DNA of 64,000 bases, taken from the NCBI RefSeq assembly GCF_000018545.1, contig NC_012587.1, positions 2,108,001-2,172,000 of the forward strand, in the 5' to 3' direction. The translations under genes were made by a program, and so were the position numbers. Below the pieces are notes generated by a model. It was not told the origin of the DNA. It ran no database searches and was given only the letters and a program-made list of their open reading frames with translations. The stretch comes from Sinorhizobium fredii NGR234 (GTDB lineage: Bacteria; Pseudomonadota; Alphaproteobacteria; Rhizobiales; Rhizobiaceae). Every line of letters starts with the position of its first letter. Within the stretch, counting starts at the first letter, position 1. Below are positions 7,402 through 35,898 of this stretch, in pieces.

Positions 7402-7639
7402 CTGCGCCTCCTTCCCGTCCTGCCGGACTTGCCGCGCCAGCGGGCGGGCTGGCCCGATCTCTCCCTTCTTAACCGGAGCCGACCGCGAATGTTCCGAGAA
7501 TGTCAGCCCGCGGGCATAGGGCAGCAGCAGCGCCGGTCGGGATATCGACAGGGCGTTTTCGCGGAGTTGAAGGCGCCTGGAGATGCGCCGGCGACGGCGT
7601 CTTATTCGCCGCATTTCCTTCTTCCACCCCTTTTCTTGG

Positions 7640-7985
7640 GCGGCGGAAACACCTATATGACTGATGCCGTCTTCGGGCGGCTATGGCAATAAACGGGCGA
7701 TGCAATAAACCCATTGGACCCGGGGGCGGTACCCGGCGCCTCCACCAAAAACCGGTCGGCAGACCGGCTTTTGATGGGGGCGAAATAGGATCGACAAGGG
7801 CGTAAAGATCGACTTTTTGCTCGGCATTGTACCACCGTTATCGGGCTAAACTTATAGTTGCAAACGACAACTATGCTGAAGCACGTCTCGCTGCCTAACG
7901 GCGGTGCGGCACTTCAAATCAAGTCCTTCCGGGTAGCACCGTAAGGCGGGGTCCGAAGGCACCTGGCAACAGAAGCCTTCACCTT
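7640..7985 (+). ncRNA. ssrA: tmRNA, circularly permuted two-piece type
   Basis: The acceptor piece comes first, ending in CGCCTCCACCA at 7737-7747 after a T-arm-like hairpin. A short spacer with its own hairpin is followed by the coding piece, whose GGGGGCG at 7776-7782 pairs with CGCCTCC of the acceptor end, then GAAATAGGATCGAC, the tRNA-like D-arm signature. The tag frame runs 7860-7898 and encodes ANDNYAEARLAA then TAA, the tag known from Rhizobiaceae. The RNA rescues stalled ribosomes and marks the nascent chain for ClpXP/ClpAP. Outer ends are approximate; the tag and the acceptor pairing are certain. Confidence 0.95.
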
Positions 7986-27777: not shown

Positions 27778-27905
27778 GCGTCACCAGAAGACTGGCGCTG
27801 AAAACGCCAGTCTTTCCACAGGCTTGCCCGGGGCGGACGAGACTCCGGAATAAAAGAAGAACATCCTTTCTGGCCTTTCGGTCCCGAATCACTACATTGG
27901 GCCGC

Positions 27906-30521
27906 ATGAGCAAAGGTTTCGACGACATTCCCTTCTTCGACGAGGAGCCGGCGCCGCGCAAACCCGCGCCTGCCGCCGGCGGCATCGCCGCGCGCGCCAT
28001 GGCCGCCCGCGACAAGACCCAGCGGCCGGATTACCTCTCCGGTCTCAACCCCGAGCAGCGCGAAGCCGTCGAAACGCTGGAGGGGCCGGTCCTGGTGCTC
28101 GCCGGCGCCGGCACCGGCAAGACGCGGGTGCTCACCACCCGCATCGCCCATATCCTTTCGACCGGCCGTGCCTACCCCTCGCAAATCCTCGCGGTGACCT
28201 TCACCAACAAGGCGGCCCGCGAGATGAAGGAGCGCATCGGCGTGCTCGTAGGCCATGCCGTCGAAGGCATGCCCTGGCTCGGCACCTTCCACTCGATCGG
28301 CGTCAAGCTCTTGCGCCGCCACGCCGAACTCGTGGGCTTGAGATCCGATTTCACCATCCTCGATACCGACGACGTGGTGCGCCTGATCAAGCAGCTCATC
28401 CAGGCCGAAGGCCTCGACGACAAGCGCTGGCCGGCCAAGCAGTTCGCCGGCATGATCGACACCTGGAAGAACAAGGGCCTCGACCCGGCGCAGATCCCGG
28501 AGGGCGACGCCCGCGCCTTCGCCAACGGCAAGGGCCGCGAGCTTTATGTCGCCTATCAGAACCGGCTCCTGACGCTCAACGCCTGCGACTTCGGCGACCT
28601 GCTGCTGCATCCGATCCGCATGTTCCGCGCCAATCCGGACGTGCTGAAGGACTATCACGACAAGTTCCGCTACATCCTGGTCGACGAGTACCAGGATACC
28701 AACACGGCGCAATATATGTGGCTGCGGCTGCTGGCGCAGCGGCCGCAAGGTGCCCGGGAAAAACACCCCTCCCCACCCCCTCCCCACAAGGGGGAGGGGC
28801 AGGAGCGGGTGGCCGCGTCCCGCTCCCCATCGAACCTAGTCGAGGAACGCCTGTCGGCGCCGCAGGCTAGCCCCTCCCCCTTGTGGGGAGGGGTTGGGGA
28901 GGGGAAATCCCGGGAAGAAAAGCCCCGCGTCAACATCTGCTGCGTCGGTGACGACGACCAGTCGATCTACGGCTGGCGCGGCGCCGAAGTCGACAATATC
29001 CTCCGCTTCGAAAAGGATTTCCCCGGCGCCAAGGTCATCAAGCTCGAGCGCAATTACCGCTCGACCGAACACATCCTCGGCGCCGCCGCCCACCTGATCG
29101 CCCACAACGAGGGCCGGCTCGGCAAGACGCTCTTCACCGACCGTAGCCACCCGGACGACGAGAAGGTGCATGTGCATGCGGCCTGGGACTCCGAAGAGGA
29201 GGCCCGCGCCGTCGGCGAGGAGATCGAGCAGCTCCAGCGCAGGAAGCACAATCTCAACGACATTGCGATCCTGGTGCGCGCCTCCTTCCAGATGCGCGAG
29301 TTCGAAGACCGCTTCGTCACGCTCGGCCTCAATTATCGCGTCATCGGCGGCCCCCGCTTCTACGAGCGGCTCGAGATCCGCGATGCCATGGCCTATTTCC
29401 GCCTTGTCTGCCAGCCGGCCGACGATCTCGCCTTCGAGCGCATCGTCAACACACCGAAGCGCGGCCTGGGCGACACCACCGTCCGCAACCTTCACGACTA
29501 CGCCCGCGCCCGCGACATACCGATGCTGGCCGCCGCAACCGAAATCATCGAAACCGACGAACTGAAGCCGAAGGCGCGCAAGGCGCTCTTCGACGTCGTC
29601 ACCGATTTCCGCCGCTGGCAGACATTGCTCGAAACGACGCCTCATACGGAACTCGCCGAACAGATCCTCGACGAGAGCGGCTATACGGCAATGTGGCAGG
29701 CCGACAAGTCCGCCGAAGCGCCGGGACGCCTCGAAAACCTCAAGGAACTCATCCGCTCGATGGAGGCCTTCGAGTCGATGCGCGGCTTCCTCGAGCATGT
29801 CGCGCTGGTCATGGATGCCGAGCAGAACGAGAACATGGATGCCGTGTCGATCATGACGCTGCACTCCGCCAAGGGCCTGGAGTTCGACACCATCTTCCTG
29901 CCGGGCTGGGAGGAAGGGCTATTTCCGCATCAGCGGGCGCTGGACGAGGGCGGCCGCGCCGGTCTCGAGGAGGAGCGCCGTCTCGCCTATGTCGGCATCA
30001 CCCGCGCCAAGCGTCGCTGCCATATCTGGTTCGTCTCGAACCGCCGCATCCATGGTCTCTGGCAGACGACCATGCCCTCACGTTTCCTCGACGAACTGCC
30101 GATCGACCATGTCGAGGTCGCCGAGCAGGACGTCTCCTATGGCGGCTACAATCGCGGCGGCTACGGCCAGTCGCGCTTCGACAAGGCCGACCCCTTCGAA
30201 AACACCTACCAGACGCCCGGCTGGAAGCGCGCCCAGCAGCACCGCACGGAAGCCACCCGCGACAATTGGGGCACCCGCTCAGGCCACGCCGTCGAGCGGA
30301 TCGGCTACGGCGAATCCGGCCCCCGCACCCGCACCATCGAGGGCGAACTCGTCGCCAAGTCGACGACCGCCGAACCCTCGCGCTTCAATGTCGGCGACCG
30401 CGTCTTCCACCTCAAATTCGGCAACGGCAACATTGCCGCGATCGAAGGCAACAAGCTGACGATCGATTTCGACCGCGCCGGTCAGAAGCGCGTGCTGGAC
30501 GGGTTTGTGGAAAGGGTGTGA
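27906..30521 (+). CDS. uvrD: DNA helicase II with an in-frame palindromic insert
   Basis: Superfamily 1 3'-5' helicase for nucleotide-excision and mismatch repair. Motifs in order: LNPEQREAV (Q motif), GAGTGKT (residues 67-73), AVTFTNKAAREMKERI (Ia), VDEYQDTN (motif II, about 258), GDDDQSIYGWRGA (motif III, about 348), LERNYRST (IV), SIMTLHSAKGLEFD (V) and YVGITRAKRR (VI). At 871 residues it is longer than typical UvrD/PcrA (about 720). Roughly 45 residues are an N-terminal extension and 54 come from the palindromic element at 28753-28914, which splits motifs II and III yet keeps the frame. Both flanks read as normal helicase. Confidence 0.95.
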   Translation: MSKGFDDIPFFDEEPAPRKPAPAAGGIAARAMAARDKTQRPDYLSGLNPEQREAVETLEGPVLVLAGAGTGKTRVLTTRIAHILSTGRAYPSQILAVTFTNKAAREMKERIGVLVGHAVEGMPWLGTFHSIGVKLLRRHAELVGLRSDFTILDTDDVVRLIKQLIQAEGLDDKRWPAKQFAGMIDTWKNKGLDPAQIPEGDARAFANGKGRELYVAYQNRLLTLNACDFGDLLLHPIRMFRANPDVLKDYHDKFRYILVDEYQDTNTAQYMWLRLLAQRPQGAREKHPSPPPPHKGEGQERVAASRSPSNLVEERLSAPQASPSPLWGGVGEGKSREEKPRVNICCVGDDDQSIYGWRGAEVDNILRFEKDFPGAKVIKLERNYRSTEHILGAAAHLIAHNEGRLGKTLFTDRSHPDDEKVHVHAAWDSEEEARAVGEEIEQLQRRKHNLNDIAILVRASFQMREFEDRFVTLGLNYRVIGGPRFYERLEIRDAMAYFRLVCQPADDLAFERIVNTPKRGLGDTTVRNLHDYARARDIPMLAAATEIIETDELKPKARKALFDVVTDFRRWQTLLETTPHTELAEQILDESGYTAMWQADKSAEAPGRLENLKELIRSMEAFESMRGFLEHVALVMDAEQNENMDAVSIMTLHSAKGLEFDTIFLPGWEEGLFPHQRALDEGGRAGLEEERRLAYVGITRAKRRCHIWFVSNRRIHGLWQTTMPSRFLDELPIDHVEVAEQDVSYGGYNRGGYGQSRFDKADPFENTYQTPGWKRAQQHRTEATRDNWGTRSGHAVERIGYGESGPRTRTIEGELVAKSTTAEPSRFNVGDRVFHLKFGNGNIAAIEGNKLTIDFDRAGQKRVLDGFVERV
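28753..28914. repeat. Palindromic repeat inserted in frame within uvrD
   Basis: A 162-bp element (54 codons). Its left arm (28753-28800) and right arm (28870-28914) are inverted copies of each other over about 45 bp, with one 35-bp stretch differing at a single base. Each arm also folds on itself (CCCCTCCCC, ACA, AGGGGGAGGGG). No stop codon occurs in the uvrD frame; it reads as PSPPPPHKGEG ... SPSPLWGGVGEG. A small hairpin lies in the 69-bp centre. Confidence 0.9.
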
Positions 30522-35044: not shown

Positions 35045-35272
35045 GGCGTTGCTCCTGTGTCCGTACAGCATCCTTCAGCGAATGCTGCGACTATCAGAAA
35101 AGACTCCTCACCAATGCTGCACTCCCATAACTCGGTTCCCGTGCAGGGTGTTCCTTGCGCGCGGTCGACAACCATCGTGTCTGCGCATTCCGCTGTGGTC
35201 GGGATCGCACAGCGAACGCGGATCCGCTGCTGCCTTAAATCGTAGCCGATCTAGGGATAAAGCATGCATTGG

Positions 35273-35373
35273 ATCACGATGATTTTAGGTCGGATCGACC
35301 TAAAATCATCGTGATCGATTCTGATGCGGGATGCAGGCGGAAAACCGCACACACTTTTCCTCATCCCGCTCTA
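35273..35373 (-). repeat. RIME-like element, family A copy (inverted)
   Basis: Read on the minus strand it begins AGCGGGATGAGGAAAAGTGT and ends with the ATGATTTTAGGTC/GACCTAAAATCAT palindrome, as in the copy at 6519-6628. It fills the space between the secreted-protein gene and cheW; the rest of 35045-35433 holds no gene. Confidence 0.85.
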
Positions 35374-35433: not shown

Positions 35434-35898
35434 CTATGCGGCCTGAGCGAGTTCGTCGGCGATGACGGTATCGAGGTTGAGGAAGCAGACCATCGACTTC
35501 TCGAGCGCGACGATGCCGCGGCAGAAGGCACGCTGGGCTTCCGGAATGATCTCCGGCGCCGGCTGCAGGTCTTCGCTGCGGATCGTCATCATGTCGGAAA
35601 CCTGCTCGACCAGCAGGCCGACAAGTTTGCCGGCGATGTCGGTGACGATGATCGCCGAACGCTCCGACGGCTCGGTCATCTTCATGCCGAGCCGGCATGC
35701 CATGTCGATGACGGGGATCACCGCGCCGCGCAGGTTGATGAGACCGAGGACATAGGGGGGCGTATGCGGCATCGGCGTCACCGGTGCCCAGCCGCGAATT
35801 TCGCGGATCGCCATGATGTCGATGCAGAATTCCTGGTCTCCGAGATGGAAGGAGACGATTTCGAGATAGGCGCCGGACTGCTTGATTGCGTTGCTCAT
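35434..35898 (-). CDS. cheW: Chemotaxis coupling protein
   Basis: A 154-residue CheW: YLEIVSFHLGDQEFCIDIMA, the conserved IREIRGWAPVTPMPHTPPYV, LGLINLRGAVIPVIDMACRL and a second beta-barrel half ending VCFLNLDTVIADE. It links receptors to CheA. It starts 2 bp after the stop of the chemoreceptor gene, so the two are one operon and presumably act together. No cheA, cheY, cheR or cheB lies in this window, so the main chemotaxis cluster is elsewhere. Confidence 0.94.
   Translation of the reverse strand: MSNAIKQSGAYLEIVSFHLGDQEFCIDIMAIREIRGWAPVTPMPHTPPYVLGLINLRGAVIPVIDMACRLGMKMTEPSERSAIIVTDIAGKLVGLLVEQVSDMMTIRSEDLQPAPEIIPEAQRAFCRGIVALEKSMVCFLNLDTVIADELAQAA

Follow-up and report, generated by a model that had tools for sequence, protein, structure and literature searches.

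How did the repair helicase UvrD of Sinorhizobium fredii NGR234 come to hold a palindromic DNA element within its reading frame, and what does this say about the way in which such elements enter conserved proteins? The locus lies in a stretch of 64,000 nucleotides (G000:C3:2108001-2172000, here called the window) of a genome of 6.89 Mb in three contigs. An earlier note, made from this stretch alone, had described a 162-bp inverted repeat of exactly 54 codons, placed in frame between helicase motifs II and III, and had likened it to the palindromic elements of Rickettsia. Judged from the alignments of related genomes reported here, the same UvrD loop holds unrelated in-frame sequences in different Hyphomicrobiales, several of which are dispersed palindromic repeats.

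The uvrD open reading frame is listed at 27897-30521, and the analysis starts from the ATG at 27906 (Table 1). The closest PDB sequences are PcrA (1pjr, E 4e-153) and E. coli DNA helicase II (3lfu and 2is1). The two arms of the palindrome, 35 nt each, are 97% complementary and stand 69 nt apart. Exact arms in the 500-bp region reach 24 nt, whereas 200 mononucleotide shuffles gave none above 14. Of the six frames across 28753-28914, stops interrupt four; the two open ones are the uvrD frame and an antisense frame that reads PSPTPPHKGEG...PSPLWGGGGEG. The in-frame palindrome, its place between the two motifs and the similar peptide on the opposite strand, all described by the earlier note, are thus confirmed. 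The GC content by codon position is gene-like both before the insert (0.65/0.46/0.84) and after it (0.66/0.42/0.86). The length of 162 bp stands as an in-frame stretch, but not as the extent of the element: the conserved part spans 28766-28904, and the CCCGGG ends that complete the 162 bp are flank sequence, the right one being missing in L032. The figure of exactly 54 codons is no evidence in itself, since it depends on the choice of ends; the net gain relative to an uninserted Ensifer allele is 57 residues.

Table 1. Features of the uvrD locus, in window coordinates
Feature	Position	Strand	Basis
uvrD/pcrA, 871 aa, SF1A helicase	27906..30521	+	ORF and match to PDB sequences
DEYQDTN, motif II	28683..28703	+	sequence read
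Variable loop, residues 279-342, 64 aa	28740..28931	+	loop parsing, PcrA alignment, structure model
Left arm of the family A palindrome; hairpin-capable on its own	28766..28800	+	inverted-repeat search, alignment of copies
Rapidly evolving spacer, similar among the uvrD copies of other species	28801..28869	+	sequence comparison
Right arm of the family A palindrome	28870..28904	+	inverted-repeat search, alignment of copies
GDDDQSI, motif III region	28947..28967	+	sequence read

By sequence alignment to the solved structures, the insert comes after the helix downstream of motif II and ahead of the motif III strand, i.e., between residues 244 and 245 of PcrA and between 237 and 243 of E. coli UvrD. 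An AlphaFold model built with 46 sequences renders residues 282-338 as coil with pLDDT below 50, flanked by a helix at 267-277 and a strand at 343-349; the model is only moderate (mean pLDDT 69.5, pTM 0.52), as other segments are also of low confidence. The insert is a predicted translated loop, its insertion being read from the comparison of alleles. An artefact or sequencing error was ruled out by the presence of related inserts in other genomes and protein databases. A known RNA family was ruled out as well, ten loci having given three matches, all below the gathering score; the only RNA family in the window at gathering score is an alphaproteobacterial tmRNA at 7627-7983.

The comparison of uvrD across rhizobia that the earlier note had proposed gave a filled loop in all 33 sampled genomes of the genus, including that of the window, with three unrelated kinds of insert (family A in 11, B with B' in 20 and C in 2), and a short loop in many other loci. 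Further kinds occur in Mesorhizobium-like genera and in relatives of Bradyrhizobium. The unrelated palindromes in the same loop of relatives were missed by the earlier note because they are not visible from one window. A survey of other genera comprised 27 genomes, of which 17 were fetched and 16 parsed, and the loop was short in 16 of 16. Among 151 genomes sampled across the family, a long stretch was present in each of the 60 fetched outside the genus in which the alignment starts at query 298-307 (60 of 61 such genomes, G144 being left out; 59 were scored by script and L126 by eye), and the best-scoring 30 loci with unbroken alignment were all short; among the other unbroken loci, some, such as G077 and G178, have spans that could conceal an insert of 35-39 residues. 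The 80 loci with organism names yielded 77 parsed ones, 33 filled and 44 short. Filled loops come from Ensifer sp. BR816, Mesorhizobium, Aminobacter, Tianweitania, Aurantimonas and Rhizobium alarense, and also from Bradyrhizobium, Nitrobacter, Rhodopseudomonas and Rhodoplanes; short ones come from other Rhizobium, Agrobacterium, Neorhizobium, Bartonella (two parsed, one unparsed), Phyllobacterium, Roseivivax and Ruegeria.

The survey was extended to 132 genomes of other families of the class. At the first E-value threshold 116 of them matched, G000 itself and 16 others being missed; at a looser threshold five of the 16 aligned unbroken over the site, two gave downstream pieces only and nine gave nothing, and the match of G000 itself broke at the loop site. 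The alignment is unbroken over the site in 121 genomes, with a translated span exceeding the query by at most 12 residues. Loop length is bimodal, 3-24 aa versus 28-101 aa, in a set of 216 parsed loci that includes one without a loop call and counts some genomes twice. Among the 120 protein matches listed (7999 scored), the insert is present in 36 and absent in 84.

The fillings were told apart by motif with 13 hand-set labels, including A, B, C, M1, M2, P and three Bradyrhizobium types, and 19 of the 125 filled loci remained unlabelled (duplicate genomes counted). Clustering of 118 unique long stretches as DNA gave 22 clusters, the largest of which, with 64 members, is partly due to GC-rich stems in common. 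The inserts fold more strongly as DNA than same-length stretches of downstream uvrD (median z -2.4 for 116 unique inserts, down to -12, versus -1.3; p 6e-9). Many of them, above all the B-like ones, are weakly palindromic, and z lies near or above 0 in the B-like L043, L056, L057 and L059. Dispersal was tested for the four families A, B, C and VIPGR and found for A, C and VIPGR only: C has 46, 29, 44 and 49 matches in four genomes of the genus, and the VIPGR type has 78, 72, 73 and 64 in four genomes of Bradyrhizobium relatives. As for B, no high-copy repeat was found in eight genomes with two B queries, which gave nine matches in seven genomes; G000 had no match, in a search where three other genomes matched. 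Each of the nine matches sits in frame within a gene, which is UvrD in five cases, UvrB in two and a hydantoinase/oxoprolinase in two. In the UvrB cases (L276 of G029 and L277 of G010), B is close to the N-terminus, and the protein has the UvrB interaction domain (UvrB_inter), so that one kind of element occurs in two nucleotide-excision repair genes. In L279 (G189) and L281 (G094), B lies within the hydantoinase/oxoprolinase domain, and the residues DNP flank the element on both sides in L279, which is a possible target duplication.

Family A is a repeat of the genome at large. The same element does recur outside uvrD, with 104 BLAST matches in its own genome, obtained by scoring 40 of 61 initial candidates, that were grouped by eye into at least 35 places. 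Thirty aligned copies show an element of mostly 140-190 bp with common arms and a semi-conserved core. A GC-periodicity test, which would miss short genes, placed one of the 35 A places in frame inside a gene, namely uvrD, and none of the 20 best-scoring C places of the same genome. Across 20 genomes of the genus, the matches at E 1e-8 (matches rather than places, from the best 25 candidates at most per genome) ranged from 0 in G002-G005 and G018 to at least 54 in G000 and G012. One A copy (L017, G000:C2:289649-289813) lies between FAD-dependent oxidoreductase and ThiS domains with no intervening stop, possibly as a read-through extension or a fusion. Comparison at one locus, thiO/thiS, with ill-placed slices gave no clean empty site for a target-site duplication. 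Four loci (L189-L192) encode Y1 transposases (PF01797), which we take to be IS200-like, in 148-aa frames with an identical 280-nt stretch in common. These were the only PF01797 matches found, there was no A or C hairpin within their 3.35 kb, and neither a mobiliser, in a search based on PF01797, nor a target-site duplication was identified. The window also contains a C-family-like hairpin at 983, seen with a loose pattern, and a different type of palindrome at 35272-35316, in which two perfectly matched 21-bp arms enclose a 3-nt loop; it lies past the 3' end of an ORF with a CheW domain (35434-35898, minus strand).

Along the tree, the insert repeatedly comes and goes and changes its kind. For a UvrD phylogeny made by a quick method with the loop excluded (156 rows, 152 different; 48 of 149 inner branches open), parsimony requires at least 11 changes of presence, at least 26 of family plus absence and at least 21 of family among filled rows, unlabelled rows being excluded from the last two counts. 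A DNA tree of 32 rows of the genus and three outgroups, with the fragment L060 left out, requires at least eight changes among A, B and C and rejects a single A clade (p-AU 4.5e-88). The A spacers of the genus nevertheless look related by descent: a length of 68 nt recurs in five of the seven, and the median local scores are 25 between uvrD spacers, 17 between uvrD and genomic ones (maximum 30) and 18 between genomic ones (maximum 94). These two observations together suggest exchange or differential loss of A and B. No long exchanged tract around the loop was seen in the flanking windows. In the first 30 nt downstream, four of six A rows are nearer to other A rows than to their B neighbour and two are not; the upstream comparison with other A rows is incomplete, three of them having no upstream sequence.

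Proteins under one species name differ in the same way. Those of S. fredii carry A (P0001) or B (HH103, P0002), that of S. meliloti C (P0011) and that of S. medicae B' (P0018), and those of Ensifer adhaerens are empty (P0030, P0031) or filled (P0019). Outside the loop gap, the filled Ensifer protein P0024 is identical to the empty P0031 at 805 of 821 aligned residues. The insert is thus not ancestral to all rhizobial UvrD, a possibility that the earlier note had raised against itself, as close alleles lack it. Family A is also found in Rhizobium giardinii and Pararhizobium sp. O133, with spacers that by eye are unlike those of the genus.

The pattern of conservation differs between the families. 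Fourfold degenerate sites were compared in seven of the 11 A genomes, the other four, one near-identical and three with internal deletions, being omitted. These pairwise and hence non-independent comparisons gave 6 differences in 162 for the left arm, 11 in 156 for the right arm and 41 in 134 for the spacer, against 715 in 2948 and 1482 in 5498 for the rest of uvrD. It is thus as DNA that the A arms look conserved. For B, in 16 of the 20 rows, codon positions one to three differ by 0.077, 0.046 and 0.084, versus about 0.02, 0.01 and 0.19-0.26 in the flanks. On these codon and fourfold-site counts, neither pattern is that of a peptide under selection.

We hypothesize, with a probability of about 0.67, that the inserts are passenger palindromes. 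The repeats would be copied or transposed more or less randomly; out-of-frame or harmful copies in genes would be lost, and in-frame copies would persist in UvrD because its loop accepts nearly any unstructured peptide. The content of a filled loop would then turn over by insertion beside or inside the old insert, by deletion and by strain-to-strain exchange. The A arms would stay nearly identical through homogenisation with other copies or through retention as a DNA hairpin, and the inserted peptide would not be selected for its sequence. Several observations speak against such a reading: none of the 33 genomes of the genus is empty, which pure neutrality does not obviously predict, and few genes were found to be hit in the genomes examined although many proteins have loose loops. 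The 19 unlabelled fillings, the B-like inserts that do not fold as palindromes and the low copy number of B weigh in the same direction.

The same full occupancy is what would be expected if the loop were adaptive, a disordered and diversifying insert that tunes UvrD through its partners, its activity or the rate of mutation and recombination, with the repeats as raw material. We consider this unlikely, and we give the same low weight to its more elaborate form, a UvrD 'landing loop' in Hyphomicrobiales in which selection keeps a disordered insert, active palindromes supply it, short tracts are exchanged between species and the outcome modulates mutation and recombination. The differences in family between sister species and among proteins of one named species would suit an adaptive loop, as would the in-frame B elements in UvrB of two genomes and the argument, in passages of PMC3733652, that repair genes are hit beyond chance. 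It fits poorly with the lack of codon-level constraint in B, with the fast change of the A spacer and with the nearly identical Ensifer proteins that do without the insert. A single ancestral insert, diverged past recognition, is very improbable. B-like peptides do occur at the site in Sinorhizobium, Ensifer, Mesorhizobium and R. alarense, and for part of B common descent may still hold; for A, C and VIPGR it is contradicted by the repeated changes of presence on the UvrD tree, by C and VIPGR being current multi-copy repeats of the genomes that carry them and by the unlike A spacers of R. giardinii and Pararhizobium.

A further possibility, to which we give somewhat less credit than to an adaptive loop, is that the site or a resident palindrome draws insertions or template switching at the DNA level, regardless of what the protein tolerates. 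Composite loops are consistent with it, two B-type units being present in L049 and L050 and an M1 or M2 type together with B in six loci. So is a hairpin at the junction, where in B loops ending in QI the last codons of the insert form a near-inverted copy of the ICCV codons of uvrD. Junction arms of at least 8 bp occur in 29 of 38 QI-ending loci, versus one of 88 other filled and none of 69 short ones (loci with less than 12 nt of loop DNA omitted), and both sides of the junction changed in 25 cells, which none of 500 shuffles reached. However, two of five covariation measures lie within the shuffles (two-sided-change pairs 256/500, pair types 485/500), and the partner slid by -3 scores as high (0.166 versus 0.159, with 22 two-sided cells) because both sides repeat in threes; moreover, no target sequence in common was demonstrated. 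Template switching could be the source of the junction structure.

The site amounts to a natural replicate experiment, in which one loop of a core repair helicase has received many unrelated fillings, with empty and filled alleles in nearly identical proteins. It makes testable whether repair proteins are preferred targets, as suspected in passages of PMC3733652. It likewise makes testable whether a palindrome in frame is a passenger that the protein tolerates or a source of new protein material.

Several known repeats resemble family A. RIME and other Sinorhizobium repeats are short, palindromic and mostly intergenic, and the likeness of RIME to family A is one of description only. REPINs, associated with RAYT genes, consist of two hairpins in inverted orientation, and so does family A; the four PF01797 loci found, without A or C hairpins nearby, set it apart from that system. 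The terminal inverted repeats, with their 35-nt arms of 97% complementarity, recall MITEs. Rickettsia palindromic elements are dispersed palindromes that are read in frame as part of conserved proteins, and the likeness drawn by the earlier note holds at the level of behaviour, family A being a dispersed palindrome in frame in a key repair enzyme. As a multi-copy palindrome (at least 35 places, 30 aligned) with an in-frame copy in a conserved gene that has a coding signature on both sides, it agrees with the Rickettsia elements; it departs from them in reaching one gene from 35 places instead of many genes per genome, and in that one site is common to unrelated families. Features of the Rickettsia elements are also summarised in passages of PMC3733652.

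That the element is undescribed in uvrD does not hold in kind. Passages of PMC3733652 report REPs inside genes, many of them repair genes with 'UvrD/REP helicase' named, and doubt that this is due to chance; recB of two Xanthomonas species is hit at about the same site, and in other genes of that class REPs lie at different sites. Rhizobial UvrD may be among the figure or supplement examples of that paper. The GTAG/CGTC REPs, as far as those passages describe them, are alike in being palindromes in repair genes including UvrD/Rep helicase, and by eye the inserts L232 and L237 have CGTCATT, and L244 TGTCATT, at the start of the stem. Unlike them, family A has stems without adjoining GTAG or CGTC (30 copies, by eye), and the UvrD site is used repeatedly, in rhizobia as well as in relatives of Bradyrhizobium. 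In the literature searched, no description was found of many families repeatedly occupying a single site in UvrD. The insert is thus real, known in kind and unusual in pattern: intragenic palindromes were already known, and the new point is one UvrD site common to unrelated families.
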